Source: Thermococcaceae archaeon (GTDB lineage: Archaea; Methanobacteriota_B; Thermococci; Thermococcales; Thermococcaceae). From it: a stretch of DNA of 64,000 nucleotides. A model generated the notes under the pieces. That model did no database searches. It saw only the letters and a program-made list of their open reading frames with translations, and was not told the origin of the DNA. A program made the translations under genes and the position numbers. The DNA lies in NCBI GenBank assembly GCA_030156945.1, contig JASGLT010000005.1, positions 1 to 64,000 of the forward strand, in the 5' to 3' direction. This document shows, piece by piece, positions 52,398 through 57,429 of the stretch (position 1 is the stretch's first letter; each line of letters opens with the position of its first letter).

Positions 52398-52634
52398 ATG
52401 GTTACTGTAAAAGTTTCCTCAAAGGGACAGATAGTTTTACCCAAATCAATCCGCGAGAAGTTCGGCATCAGACCGGGGGATGAGGTTGAGGTACTTGACT
52501 TTGGCGATGAGATTGTTATAGTGCCCATCAAAAAAGACATGAAACTGCGGGGCTTAGTCAAGTTCGAGAAGTCGGTAAAGGAGATACTAAAAGAAACTAG
52601 GGCGGAGGAAGAAGAGCTGGAGGCCAGGAAATGA
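52398..52634 (+). CDS. AbrB/SpoVT-family antitoxin (VapB type)
   Basis: 78 residues. The first ~45 form the swapped-hairpin AbrB fold (VKVSSKGQIVLPKSIREKFGIRPGDEVEV), which binds DNA; the helical tail should neutralise the toxin. Stop overlaps the PIN gene start by 4 bases. TATA-like ATGTTTTTATGC at about 52353-52364. Opens the toxin island. Confidence 0.88.
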   Translation: MVTVKVSSKGQIVLPKSIREKFGIRPGDEVEVLDFGDEIVIVPIKKDMKLRGLVKFEKSVKEILKETRAEEEELEARK

Positions 52635-53026
52635 GGGCTGTTCTGGATAGCTATGCAATTCTGGCTTACATCGCAGATGAAGAGGGGGCAGATAAAGTCG
52701 AGGAATACCTGAGTCTTGCACGGGCTGGAAAAGCGGAGCTTTACATGAACGTGGTAAACCTCGGAGAGATATACTATATCCTCGCACGACGGAAGGGTGT
52801 TGAGGTTGCGAACCTTTCCGTGGCCCTCCTCAAGGAAGAGCCAATTAAGTTCGTGTCCGTGGATGAGAGACTCTCCCTCCTCGCCGGGAGAATAAAAGCC
52901 TTCCACAGACTCAGCTATGCAGATGCTTTTGCCGTTGCAACGGCCATAGACCTCAAAGCCACGTTGGTAACTGGCGACGAAGAGTTTAGGGCCGTCGAGG
53001 ACAAGGTGAGGATAGAGTGGCTTTAG
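52631..53026 (+). CDS. PIN-domain toxin (VapC)
   Basis: 131 residues. PIN acidic residues: Asp in MRAVLDSYAI, Glu in NLGEIYYILAR, Asp in SYADAFAVATA and Asp in TGDEEF. Predicted Mg-dependent RNase, inhibited by the AbrB-type antitoxin upstream. Start coincides with the antitoxin stop (ATGA overlap). Confidence 0.9.
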   Translation: MRAVLDSYAILAYIADEEGADKVEEYLSLARAGKAELYMNVVNLGEIYYILARRKGVEVANLSVALLKEEPIKFVSVDERLSLLAGRIKAFHRLSYADAFAVATAIDLKATLVTGDEEFRAVEDKVRIEWL

Positions 53027-53077: not shown

Positions 53078-53470
53078 ATGATATTCCTGATAGGGTTCTC
53101 CGAGGAAGAGGTAAACCTAATCAAGGAAGCCTTTAACGGCGTTCCCGTCTACGAGATACCGAGCTACTGCAGGGACTGGGTTTTGAGTGAAGTCATTGAG
53201 AAGGCCGACTCGCTTGAGGGGAGCGGAAACTGGCACGAGAGGAAGTTCTTCCTCATGCACAACCTGAGCAATGACGAAGTTAAAGAAGCGTTGAGAAAGA
53301 TGAAATCTCTAGGCTTCAGGGGAGTTATCTATGCGACAACAACGCCGACATCTCTCACGATGAAGCTCGATGAGCTGATAGAGGAGTGGCTTGAGGAAGA
53401 TGCCTACTTCCGCCAGCTCAGGAGGATGAAGAGGGGGCCGTACTTGGATATCGGGGGAGGGTCTGGTTAG
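53078..53470 (+). CDS. DUF3783 family protein
   Basis: 130 residues of a Thermococcales-type DUF3783 protein; alpha/beta fold with no known activity (EEEVNLIKEAFNGVPVYEIP and YATTTPTSLTMKLDELIEEWL). The C-terminus RGPYLDIGGGSG is basic/glycine-rich. It overlaps the convergent nucleotidyltransferase gene by 4 bases. TATA-like GCTTTTTAAATC near 53040-53050. Confidence 0.75.
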   Translation: MIFLIGFSEEEVNLIKEAFNGVPVYEIPSYCRDWVLSEVIEKADSLEGSGNWHERKFFLMHNLSNDEVKEALRKMKSLGFRGVIYATTTPTSLTMKLDELIEEWLEEDAYFRQLRRMKRGPYLDIGGGSG

Positions 53471-53772
53471 ATCTCGAGCGGTATCCCTTCTGATTTTACC
53501 GTTTTTATGAAGCTGTCGTTTCTCTTTTTGAATTCATCCGGCTTGAGGAGTATTGGGCTTATTAGTTCTCCGTATCTGAGGAGTACATCCGTTACCAGCT
53601 CTATTAGTTCGTCAAAATCAACCTCCCCAACTACCAGAACATCAATGTCGCTCTCCTCATCGTAATCTCCCCTGGCGTAGGAACCGAATAGAAAGACCCT
53701 CTCTATTGAGCTTCCGAATCGTTCCTTTAAAAGCCTTAAAAACTCGTTAAGGGCCTGAGCTTTCTTGTCCAT
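53467..53772 (-). CDS. Minimal nucleotidyltransferase (MNT) protein
   Basis: About 101 residues from ATG 53772, after GGGTGTG. The nucleotidyltransferase motif GSYARGDYDEESDIDV (GS...D-x-D) is complete. MNT proteins usually pair with a HEPN partner as toxin-antitoxin, where the MNT AMPylates or polyadenylates the HEPN toxin. No HEPN gene is present beside it; the divergent neighbour is a membrane protein. Its promoter is one copy of the duplicated cassette. Confidence 0.85.
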   Translation of the reverse strand: MDKKAQALNEFLRLLKERFGSSIERVFLFGSYARGDYDEESDIDVLVVGEVDFDELIELVTDVLLRYGELISPILLKPDEFKKRNDSFIKTVKSEGIPLEI

Positions 53773-53802
53773 TTTCACACCCAAAAAGGTTGCTGAATTG
53801 CG

Positions 53803-53848
53803 TATTTAACCCTTCTCCCGGTATTATACCCTCCGGTAGGAGGGAAAT
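53803..53848. repeat. Bidirectional promoter cassette, copy 1
   Basis: 46 bp starting TATTTAACCCTTCTCCC and ending GGTAGGAGGGAAAT. It nearly matches 54899-54945 (one extra C and one changed base in copy 2). GGTTAAATA (minus strand) is the TATA for the MNT gene; GTATTATACC is the plus-direction TATA. A second TATA (TCTATAAATACC) and a second GGTAGGAGGGAA follow before the membrane-protein ATG, so this copy has been partly rebuilt. Confidence 0.65.
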
Positions 53849-53880
53849 CTATAAATACCCGGAGGTAGGAGGGAAGGAGA

Positions 53881-54294
53881 ATGGCAGGCTCCGGACCTCT
53901 CAGCGCTATCTTTGGCCTGTACGTCTTCATTGGAGGTGTTATAGGGATCTGGGATGCTTTATTTGGTCTATTCAAACCTAAATTTGACATTGAGTACTAC
54001 AAAACAACAGAAGAAATACAATCCGAGAAAGATCATTTGCTGAAGGGAATCCTCCTGACATCGTTCGTGACATTGCCTACTCTTTCTTACGTAGGTTTTC
54101 TGGCTCTTGAGGATCCACAGGAGGATACTTTTGGAACTGTCATTATTTCTTTGTTCTACCTCGGTGCTTGGGCGAGATTGATACATAAGCTATACCTCTG
54201 GAAGAAGCTGAACTACCGCCATAAACAGTTTCTCCTCCAAGAGGCCGTAGCTAAGGGCGTTGAAATCGGCATGAAGAAAGCAAAAGAGGGCTAA
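53881..54294 (+). CDS. Small membrane protein, unknown function
   Basis: 137 residues with an N-terminal hydrophobic helix (LSAIFGLYVFIGGVIGIWDALF), two more in the middle (ILLTSFVTLPTLSYVGFLAL and VIISLFYLGAWARLI) and a basic cytoplasmic tail. Divergent from the MNT gene, convergent with a PIN gene (overlap of 4 bases). GGAGGGAAGGAG precedes the ATG. No family recognised. AT-richer than its neighbours. Confidence 0.65.
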   Translation: MAGSGPLSAIFGLYVFIGGVIGIWDALFGLFKPKFDIEYYKTTEEIQSEKDHLLKGILLTSFVTLPTLSYVGFLALEDPQEDTFGTVIISLFYLGAWARLIHKLYLWKKLNYRHKQFLLQEAVAKGVEIGMKKAKEG

Positions 54295-54695
54295 TTCCTT
54301 CCATCAACCTTTTCAAATGGGTTATAGATTCTAAGCCCCTCAATGCCTTTGAAGTCTCTGACGTTTCTCGTTACAAGGGTGTAGTTGTATCTCAGGGCAG
54401 TGGCCGCTATTACGGCATCGGGGAGCTTTATGCTTTTCCTTCTCCTCAAATCAATCGCAAGTTCTGCAATGTCATCCGTGAGGGGAATTACATGGGCGAA
54501 GCTTATGAACTCCCTTGACTTCTCAAAACCCTCTGGAGTGTGACCCTTCCAGCCGAGGAACTCTATCTTGGTGATTATGGAGATGTTGAAGCTCTCCTTT
54601 AGGATTTTCTCTATCCTGGGTATCTCCTCCTCCGGAATGGCATCCGCGAGGTAGTATATGAGGATGTTGGTGTCTATCAGAAATCCCTCTCCCAT
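54291..54695 (-). CDS. PIN-domain toxin (VapC)
   Basis: 134 residues with PIN acidic residues in FLIDTNILIYYL, TKIEFLG, KLPDAVIAATAL and TRNVRDF. Predicted RNase toxin. Starts inside the antitoxin gene (19-base overlap), which is upstream on the same strand, so the two are translated together. Confidence 0.9.
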   Translation of the reverse strand: MGEGFLIDTNILIYYLADAIPEEEIPRIEKILKESFNISIITKIEFLGWKGHTPEGFEKSREFISFAHVIPLTDDIAELAIDLRRRKSIKLPDAVIAATALRYNYTLVTRNVRDFKGIEGLRIYNPFEKVDGRN

Positions 54696-54865
54696 TCCGA
54701 CCTCAGCTCCCGAAGGCTCTTTTCGAGGTCTTTTTTCCCTTTGTAAATCCCCCTGTACTTTGAAGGCTCGAATAGCCTATCTTTTATCTTTTCCCACAGT
54801 TCTGGGGAGACTATCACACCCTTTATCCTGCCGTGCTCATCGTAGATGTACTCAACCCCTTCCAT
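54677..54865 (-). CDS. Short antitoxin partner of the PIN gene (VapB-like)
   Basis: 62 residues, acidic/basic: EYIYDEHGRIKGVIVSPELWEKI then a helical tail ending RELRSEWERDF. The pattern fits small PHD/DUF-type antitoxins that sit directly before VapC genes. Its promoter is the second copy of the bidirectional cassette (GGTTAAATA, rc of about 54899-54907). Confidence 0.75.
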   Translation of the reverse strand: MEGVEYIYDEHGRIKGVIVSPELWEKIKDRLFEPSKYRGIYKGKKDLEKSLRELRSEWERDF

Positions 54866-54898
54866 ATCTCATGCCCGAGAAAATGTTGGCGGAGGGTC

Positions 54899-54945
54899 TA
54901 TTTAACCCTTCTCCCCAGTATTATACCCTCCGGTAGGAGGGAAAT
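54899..54945. repeat. Bidirectional promoter cassette, copy 2
   Basis: 47 bp matching 53803-53848 almost base for base. The minus-strand TATA GGTTAAATA serves the antitoxin-VapC genes; plus-strand GTATTATACC and GGAGGG lie before the ATG at 54944, which is inside the repeat (AAATG). In copy 1 the same place reads AAATC, so the ancestral start codon was lost there. Confidence 0.65.
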
Positions 54946-55552
54946 GACAGTTGAAACTGGCAAAAGGGCCAGTGAGTTGATTTCCCGGATAAAAGGATAT
55001 GACGCCGATGTTAAATCTATTATTGGGATGATTGTTGAGATCTTTCTACTCACATTTGGGTTATTTTTCTTAGCAATAGACTTGGACAGCAGTTCTTGGG
55101 CCCCGGTGTTTGTGTTTGCCTCAATCATTTCCCCATTTGGACTAATCATTCTTTTACTTCCCATCATGTTCCATATACATGCAGACCCCCAGGAATTCGT
55201 TGAAGCTTTTAAGATGGACAATAAGAGCAAAGACGTCTCCGAAATAGAGATTCTCGAGAAAGCTTACTCAACGTGCCGTCCTTTTGTAAAAAAGGGATTT
55301 GAATACTCCCTAGAATCCTGGTTGTTGCTGAGTGTCTGGACATCACTACTTGAAGTGAGTGCAACAACGGGAAACATTACGATAAGAAACTGGTCAGCAT
55401 TTTGGTTTCTACTTTTTATCTCATCAGTGGGAGCTTTGGTGGGTTTTGTTTTGACCATTGTGTTTTACCTCCGCAAGCGCTCAATCGAGAAGGCCCTCTT
55501 TGCCATTCAGCTCAAGAAGAGCGACAAGGCGGAAATCTCGATTAAGCTTTGA
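54944..55552 (+). CDS. Membrane protein, unknown function
   Basis: About 202 residues from ATG 54944; longer readings run through the promoter. Two N-terminal membrane helices (IVEIFLLTFGLFFLAI, FASIISPFGLIILLLPIMF), a ~60-residue loop with a conserved-looking AFKMDNKSKDVSEIEI, then two C-terminal helices. Faces the VapBC pair back to back across the duplicated promoter cassette. Not related in sequence to the 53.9 kb membrane protein. No family recognised. Confidence 0.65.
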   Translation: MTVETGKRASELISRIKGYDADVKSIIGMIVEIFLLTFGLFFLAIDLDSSSWAPVFVFASIISPFGLIILLLPIMFHIHADPQEFVEAFKMDNKSKDVSEIEILEKAYSTCRPFVKKGFEYSLESWLLLSVWTSLLEVSATTGNITIRNWSAFWFLLFISSVGALVGFVLTIVFYLRKRSIEKALFAIQLKKSDKAEISIKL

Positions 55553-55561
55553 TATTGCTTT

Positions 55562-56686
55562 TTATTCCTTTACCAAACTCTTTCCCACCATATTCGCCGG
55601 CTTCTCAACTCCAAAGAACTTCAGAACCGTCGGAGCTATGTCCATAAGGCTTGGCTCTTCAAGTTCAACGTTCTCGAAGCCCCATAGTATAAGGGGCACT
55701 TTCATCACGGGCTCGTTCATCGAACCGTGCATCCCCCTTACCCAGTGGCTCGCTCCCTTTACACCTCTACACATCCGATGGGAGCAGAACCAGTAGCCGG
55801 GCTTTGCAGAAACTATGAGCTCGCCGCTGTTTGGATTGTCCAAGTGCGGAAGCTCCTCACGGAAAAAGACCTCCTTAACTACAGGCGCCCGTCTAAGGGC
55901 TTCAAAGGCTTCTTCGCTCTGGTTGGGATCTTTGAGATAAACGTGGACACCTCCGCCGGAGGAGACTCTCAGAACCTCAATTCCCTTCTCTTTAAGGTAT
56001 GTCTTCAGGTTCACCCAGGTGTGCACCTCCTCCTGCCCGTGGTCGGCGAAGATTATGAACGCATACTCGTTCTTCAACCTCTCCCAGAGGGTTCTCACGG
56101 CCGTATCTACCGTCTCGACGGCTTTCATTGCCCCCTCGCTTAGCGGCCCGTGATCGTGCTGCATCCCGTCTATCGAGGCGAAGTGGACAAGCAGGAGGTC
56201 AGGCTTGCACTCCTCGTAAAGGTAGAGCGCTGAGTTGAGAACCCAAACGTCCTTCCTCCAGTCCCGCCCGTGCTTCCTGTACATCTCGTTGCTCGCGAAG
56301 AAGGGTGGGAAGATTCTAACGTCGGTCCCGCTGAAGGGCGGCATCGTGTAGCCTGAAACCGAGGCAGTTCTAACTCCTTTTTCTCTAAGGATGTCAACTA
56401 TTGTGGGGGTTTTGATACCCTTGTGTGGATTGAATGCAACCTCGTATTCGTAGAAGTTCACCTTCCTGTCGGCTATCCTGTCGTAGTAGCCGTTCTCGAC
56501 GACGCCGTGGTCCCTCGGCCACACACCTGTCATGACGCTCGTGTGGACTAAGTCGGTCAGAGTTGGGAATATCGAATCAACGACCGCGAAGTGCCCGCTC
56601 TCGGCGAGCTCGCTCAGGAAGGGCATGTGCTTTAAGTTGTAAACCCCGTTCCCGTCGAGGCTTATAAGGGCGAGCTTCTTCCTCAC
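55562..56686 (-). CDS. Alkaline phosphatase superfamily phosphodiesterase
   Basis: 374 residues (PF01663 type I phosphodiesterase/nucleotide pyrophosphatase). Metal and nucleophile sites: SLDGNGVYN (Asp), FPTLTDLVHTS (Thr nucleophile), SIDGMQHDHG, FADHGQ and RGMHGSM. GTG start at 56686 lies in the overlap GTGA with the small coiled-coil gene stop. The first ~20 codons are duplicated at 57352-57429 (see that entry). Now the last gene of a toxin operon. Confidence 0.92.
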   Translation of the reverse strand: MRKKLALISLDGNGVYNLKHMPFLSELAESGHFAVVDSIFPTLTDLVHTSVMTGVWPRDHGVVENGYYDRIADRKVNFYEYEVAFNPHKGIKTPTIVDILREKGVRTASVSGYTMPPFSGTDVRIFPPFFASNEMYRKHGRDWRKDVWVLNSALYLYEECKPDLLLVHFASIDGMQHDHGPLSEGAMKAVETVDTAVRTLWERLKNEYAFIIFADHGQEEVHTWVNLKTYLKEKGIEVLRVSSGGGVHVYLKDPNQSEEAFEALRRAPVVKEVFFREELPHLDNPNSGELIVSAKPGYWFCSHRMCRGVKGASHWVRGMHGSMNEPVMKVPLILWGFENVELEEPSLMDIAPTVLKFFGVEKPANMVGKSLVKE

Positions 56687-57355: not shown

Positions 57356-57429
57356 TTCCACCACCATTTATGCTCCAGATTGTAAACCCCGTTCCCGTCG
57401 AGGCTTATGAGGGTTAGCTTTTTTCTCAT
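57352..57429 (-). pseudogene. Duplicated 5' end of the phosphodiesterase gene
   Basis: A 25-codon frame starting MRKKLTLISLDGNGVYNLEH. The first ~20 codons match the phosphodiesterase start MRKKLALISLDGNGVYNLKH, mostly with synonymous changes. It then runs through TGGTGGTGG and stops at TGA overlapping the antitoxin ATG (ATGA). Upstream TATA AACTTTTTAAC (rc, about 57447-57457) is thus the original phosphodiesterase promoter. The peptide may act as a coupling leader. It marks the left edge of an inserted toxin-antitoxin cassette. Confidence 0.8.

Follow-up and report, generated by a model that had tools for sequence, protein, structure and literature searches.

What are the two nearly identical blocks of DNA that stand, in this archaeal genome, in front of genes unrelated to one another? 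They occupy positions 53803-53848 and 54899-54945 of the window, by which we mean the whole 64,000-nucleotide stretch of the Thermococcaceae contig analysed here, and when the sequence is read directly they agree in 45 of 47 aligned columns, differing by one substitution and one 1-nt indel. The near-identical block of about 46 bp noted in the preliminary description is therefore real, and TATA-like boxes are found in both directions, as had been claimed. In each block two halves can be told apart. On the left, TATTTAACCCTTCTCCC(C)[GA]G is a promoter that, read leftward, places a TATA box ahead of a toxin–antitoxin (TA) gene; on the right, TATTATA-CCCTCC-GGTA-GGAGGG-AAAT forms the 5′ leader to a gene for a membrane protein.

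The blocks lie between rpsG (S7) and a phosphodiesterase gene (55562-56686, minus strand; PF01663, 1.5e-54), the latter forming the fixed right border of an insertion hotspot, outside the cassettes themselves. On the left stands the usual neighbour of cassettes at this chromosomal site, a MazE-type VapB and PIN toxin pair (52398-53026, plus strand; PF04014, 5e-16 and PF01850, 5e-19) that adjoins leaders in other genomes. The first TA-side promoter, TATTTAACCCTTCTCCCGG (53803-53821, minus strand), delimited by sequence reading and comparison, has the leftward TATA box TTAAATA and precedes the gene of a 101-aa MNT nucleotidyltransferase (53467-53772, minus strand; PF01909, 2.6e-14). Rightward, the first leader core (53822-53844, plus strand), comprising the TATA box TATTATA and the dyad CCCTCC-GGTA-GGAGGG, is separated from the ATG at 53881 by a second 29-nt promoter unit, AAATCTATAAATACCCGGAGGTAGGAGGG (53845-53873, plus strand; consensus over 37 leaders with the ATG at +31), which had been overlooked. 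The gene that follows (class B; 53881-54294, plus strand) encodes a 137-aa membrane protein with three predicted long helices and closes with the constant 3′ tail ...QEAVAKGVEIGMKKAKEG. Its stop codon shares 4 bp (CTAA) with that of a PIN-domain toxin gene (54291-54695, minus strand; PF01850, 6e-13). Together with an overlapping upstream gene (54677-54865, minus strand) for a 62-aa VapB-like antitoxin of the MEGVEYIYDEHG... family, assigned by position and recurrent pairing with a weak Pfam match, this toxin gene makes up a VapBC arrangement. Next come the second TA-side promoter (54899-54918, minus strand) and the second leader core (54919-54941, plus strand), which leads straight into the ATG of a class A gene without a second unit. 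The class A gene (54944-55552, plus strand), its cassette boundary drawn by comparison with genome G038, encodes a 202-aa membrane protein and ends in the constant tail ...LFAIQLKKSDKAEISIKL. As first described, the two rightward genes encode predicted membrane proteins that are mutually unrelated and belong to no Pfam family. A 58-bp direct repeat, 84% identical, was also seen nearby at 56628-56685, the 5′ end of the phosphodiesterase gene, and at 57371-57428, which resembles a fragment of a second copy.

The suggestion that each block drives a toxin-type gene leftward holds for the VapB-like/PIN pair and probably fails for the MNT gene, the likelier product of which is an antitoxin. HEPN–MNT modules are type VII TA systems in which MNT is the antitoxin half (PMC7641770). 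In the window the MNT antitoxin domain is present and an adjacent HEPN toxin gene is absent. Because an MNT gene adjoins a HEPN gene at the same site in genome G024, we regard the window's MNT as probably the orphan antitoxin of a HEPN–MNT pair that lacks its HEPN. Its match to the MntA family (NF047752, 7e-7) lies below the cut-off of 60 bits.

The leader is far from unique to this locus. Its core, a 23-25-mer searched with up to three mismatches, has three copies in this genome and at least 80 among 94 Thermococcaceae genomes, 38 of which carry it; a reversed-pattern control gave no match in the same 94 genomes. The named genomes that carry it belong to Thermococcus or to Thermococcaceae MAGs, apart from three single bacterial matches (L039, L054 and L060), where about 0.5 would be expected by chance under equal base frequencies. 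Leader copies thus appear almost confined to the genus Thermococcus. Three matches to a short form of the pattern lie in viral contigs. Throughout, the leader takes the form of a TATA box about 26 nt ahead of the ATG with the CCCTCC/GGAGGG dyad between them; some leaders carry the promoter as one or two tandem repeats of 29 nt, and where leaders occur in arrays, the units are spaced at 1.1-1.3 kb with their copies direct rather than inverted.

To count neighbours, 94 distinct leader copies were gathered with their context. Every readable leader precedes a single superfamily, whose members are small membrane proteins or PH-like proteins, or remnants of it: 31 genes of class A, 29 of class B, 12 soluble PH-like, six of class C and 16 unclassified, the last mostly broken or short. 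Only 59 of the 94 copies have a first open reading frame of at least 100 aa, which indicates that decay is common. The superfamily is built on one plan, with a constant leader, a hypervariable core and a few constant types of 3′ tail. N-terminal and central parts are unrelated between classes and the C-terminal tails are constant; in classes A and B, DNA identity reaches 0.72-0.91 along most of the final ~50 nt and 0.31-0.35, the random level, further inside the genes, the tail identity being owed in part to protein constraint and codon bias. Although they share a common leader, classes A, B, C and PH have no visible homology to each other.

Known families offer little guidance to what these proteins are. 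The membrane proteins scanned match no Pfam, NCBIfam or PADLOC family above cut-off, and the PH-like members show a weak, below-cut-off match to bPH_3 (E = 0.0057). The PADLOC family PDC-M48A was considered for class A and set aside as too weak a match (E = 0.0016, 16.6 bits). AlphaFold models, built on thin alignments (pLDDT 72), are all-helical, with the last long helix extending into the tail, and a Foldseek search of the class A model against the PDB returned nothing at E ≤ 0.001, the hits being generic helix bundles, the best of them at E = 0.07. With the window's class A gene as the protein query, relatives were found in 28 of the 94 genomes. Among six informative class A loci without a strict leader match, five (L157-L160 and L162) have a visible leader or one that has recognisably diverged, and none was found in the stretch read at the sixth (L163). 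The leader genes appear in sum to form a hypervariable membrane-protein superfamily that matches no known family. As a separate observation, a 396-aa AAA ATPase often adjoins class A genes (L068, L070, L157, L162, L166 and L171); the L070 copy matches PADLOC PDC-S01 (E = 4.5e-31), and GAGAAC/GTTCTC repeats lie upstream of the ATPase in several genomes.

The TA-facing half of the block has a distribution of its own. Its usual form, TATTTAACNCCTTCG, has 53 matches in 28 genomes, and at nearly all of the 30 loci read it lies about 30 nt ahead of a TA gene. This one promoter is common to unrelated families, namely UPF0175, VapB-like and two HEPN types, with DUF104 at other loci. About half of the TA-promoter loci read abut a leader. 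In the rest the promoter lies, for example, where an RtcA-like gene ends, a place at which the TA family varies by genome; loci L087, L090, L091, L095, L102, L105, L106, L111 and L113 carry different TA families there under the one promoter. In this genome L108 (G000:C20:939-953) departs from the association with TA genes, its TA-type promoter box preceding a dehydrogenase gene; that box adjoins a gene end at which other genomes have TA modules.

From the leader's side, a divergent TA gene starts within 150 bp in 44 of the 94 copies, and the TA promoter box is present in 42 of these, with 11-16 bp (mode 13) between the opposed TATA boxes. The other 50 copies have no divergent TA gene and the partners are not fixed, so the expectation that the membrane gene always faces a nuclease or nucleotidyltransferase does not hold. 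VapB and UPF0175 each face classes A, B and PH, and one HEPN type (HEPN_a) faces A and B. A TA gene nonetheless lies within about 2 kb of 75 of the 94 copies (up to 1.5 kb upstream or 2 kb downstream), and TA genes downstream are antiparallel in 44 copies as against parallel in three. UPF0175 genes number only ~1.4 per genome, yet 15 of the 94 leaders face one, far more than co-location by chance would give. Convergent stop codons share exactly 4 bp in 13 membrane/TA pairs, which are of several unrelated kinds; such an overlap is also frequent in compact genomes generally.

Comparison across genomes bears on how these combinations arise. The phosphodiesterase gene is present in 60 of 61 genomes of the genus. 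At the site between it and rpsG, about a dozen Thermococcus genomes are nearly empty, with just ~20-140 bp and no target-site duplication noted by inspection. Other genomes hold varied mixes of VapBC, DUF3783, MNT with or without HEPN, PIN/VapB, UPF0175 and leader-membrane genes, and some hold other DNA of no identified kind. In 31 pairs of related leader genes that lie in different upstream contexts, every alignment begins at -37 to +46 of the leader, left breakpoints that in TA-facing pairs are partly forced by the ~50 bp of intergenic space, and in eight of the 31 one alignment end falls within 8 nt of a stop codon. Of eight pairs that share their context, six remain alignable for another 266-600 bp upstream. 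The best example is offered by the class A gene of the window at 54944, which is 88% identical to a gene of G038: the match opens 10 bp ahead of the leader, closes 2 bp short of the stop codon and has unrelated sequence on either side. The PH-type gene that G030 carries at this site terminates within a left-over class A tail. This genome also has a third leader, missed at first, on contig C39 (L078:6557-7500, G000:C39), where the gene has been deleted and the leader is fused to a remnant of a class A tail. Behind that remnant lies a PIN/UPF0175 pair, antiparallel and showing signs of decay.

This loss of similarity at leader and stop, together with the polymorphism of the site, indicates that the region of the window consists of exchangeable cassettes in a TA-rich hotspot. 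We infer the exchange from sequence comparison, having observed neither a recombinase nor an exchange event. Part of the pattern would be expected of a fast-evolving gene family that conserves its promoter and C-terminus, and the many pseudogene copies can also reflect junk turnover. The idea of a modular system with swapped parts nevertheless fares well: when the block was searched across the genomes of the family and its flanks were listed, a shared bidirectional promoter set between TA genes and non-homologous membrane proteins emerged as a genus-wide arrangement.

How the leader might act follows partly from its spacing. The consensus TATA-to-ATG distance is ~26 nt in both one-unit and two-unit leaders, and a TATA-to-start spacing of ~23 bp has been measured in T. 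kodakarensis (PMC4247193), so that a nearly leaderless mRNA is expected from the proximal promoter; the dyad would then sit between TATA box and start, a position typical of repressors. TA and membrane-gene transcription could also compete through the abutting TATA boxes. That the leader works mainly as RNA, through a hairpin hiding the ribosome-binding sequence in read-through transcripts or a temperature sensor, seems to us distinctly improbable. The one-unit form CCCUCC-GGGA-GGAGGG has a predicted pairing of ~0.95 at 80 °C that falls to ~0.2 at 100 °C, and the dyad arms change jointly at one pair (C-G to T-A) in 16 copies, with one paired-change variant in 13 copies, as either a hairpin or a DNA dyad would have it; these copies are mostly one variant, however, and the double change may be a single inherited one. 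Transcription is predicted to start past the 5′ arm, which native mRNAs would therefore lack, and no Rfam family matches. The hairpin would cover the purine run in the one-unit form, whereas the two-unit consensus is predicted to fold otherwise and to leave that start-proximal run free, for which reason RNA control is ranked second.

An ordinary regulon would need no dedicated swapping at the leader: a fast-evolving Thermococcus membrane family would keep one conserved promoter and operator and lie near TA genes only through genomic islands. That all readable leaders precede one superfamily or its remnants agrees with this, as do the position of the dyad between TATA and ATG, where archaeal repressors usually bind, and the symmetric changes (CCCTTC...GAAGGG) that preserve it. 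We judge it unlikely all the same, since four classes without visible homology use one leader, similarity is lost abruptly at leader and stop, and neither the antiparallel TA order (44:3) nor a TA-specific abutting promoter is expected from mere co-location. We think it very improbable that the membrane protein works as a third member of the TA module opposite, for instance in an MNT-membrane effector pair like HalB-HalA of Hailong: the head-to-head genes with a shared promoter and a weak similarity of the MNT to HalB (E = 7e-6) would fit, but the HalB score is 25.8 against a cut-off of 190, partner specificity is lacking and 50 leaders face no TA gene. We give hardly any credence to the block being a mobile element's end or recombination site (a MITE, an IS end or an integron-like site), for although scattered copies, a dyad and regularly spaced arrays recall one, and TnpB adjoins three leaders, those three are its only occurrences, no integrase gene was found among the neighbours examined, the array-unit copies are not inverted, and the cassettes have their own promoters and alternating gene orientation. 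The repeat listing of the window contains no inverted-repeat pair bounding the cassettes. The class A protein has no plasmid match either; plasmid origin was looked into as a possibility and dropped after a tblastn search of PLSDB gave no match.

We therefore favour, as probable on balance, the explanation that the region belongs to a genus-wide family of exchangeable gene cassettes, and the leader marks a cassette system without a previous name. A constant rightward leader stands ahead of small membrane or PH-like genes whose cores vary and whose 3′ ends are of few types, back to back with a constant leftward promoter serving unrelated TA modules, and arrays alternate membrane gene and TA gene in convergent orientation. 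Genes retain their leader while neighbours change; similarity ends at the leader and, frequently, also at the stop codon or tail. Recombination in the short constant ends would swap cores and neighbours. TA modules would help to keep these arrays from being lost from the chromosome. The membrane-gene promoter, giving nearly leaderless mRNA, would be shut by a putative repressor on the dyad, by competition with the abutting TA promoter, or by both. The company of TA genes, the hypervariability, the fast turnover and the decay to pseudogenes are circumstantial grounds for thinking that the membrane proteins may be accessory conflict proteins, for defence or competition, which would include the antiviral role first proposed. 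A bolder version of the cassette explanation, which we hold only tentatively and think rather doubtful, is a dedicated, integrase-free diversification system for anti-virus or inter-strain conflict, in which leader and tail would be recombination handles for swapping membrane-effector cores between cells, TA modules interleaved stabilisers, and the overlapping divergent promoter a coupling of membrane-gene expression to TA state.

A literature search, with subscription papers mostly outside its scope, brought up no account of such a gene family or gene arrangement. One DNA element here joins shuffled TA modules and an uncharacterised hypervariable membrane superfamily, which were not known to go together. 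The leader can serve as a search key to a whole class of accessory genes in laboratory-grown archaea, and it makes testable both cassette exchange without an obvious recombinase and the role of TA genes in such arrays.

Among known systems, Hailong consists of the HalB nucleotidyltransferase with a membrane effector, and the window likewise has a nucleotidyltransferase adjoining a membrane protein; the MNT scores far below the HalB cut-off, however, and its pairing is one of many combinations. Integron arrays, including archaeal ones (PMC9668308), also separate small variable genes by a constant element, but their cassettes are promoterless and mostly co-directed, whereas here each cassette has its own TATA boxes and membrane and TA genes are antiparallel. 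The leftward genes are members or remnants of type II and VII TA modules (VapBC, UPF0175-PIN and HEPN-MNT; PMC7641770), set apart by the placing of unrelated families under one promoter that abuts a membrane-gene leader. The nearest regulatory parallel is the early-promoter regulon of archaeal virus anti-defence genes (PMC11065993), in which one promoter sequence likewise serves unrelated small accessory genes; that regulon is found in viruses of other archaea, whereas the present arrangement is chromosomal and has TA modules, constant gene tails and a dyad. The nearest hypervariable system of Thermococcales is VARTIG (PMC8416519), which shares with these cassettes the restriction to that order, hypervariable loci, recombination, membrane proteins and a possible role in conflict or immunity. 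VARTIG proteins are large, secreted and built of Ig domains, a family not found in the window or the related cassette proteins scanned, and are encoded in co-directed arrays, whereas the cassettes described here encode small membrane and PH-like proteins beside TA neighbours, behind a constant bidirectional promoter.
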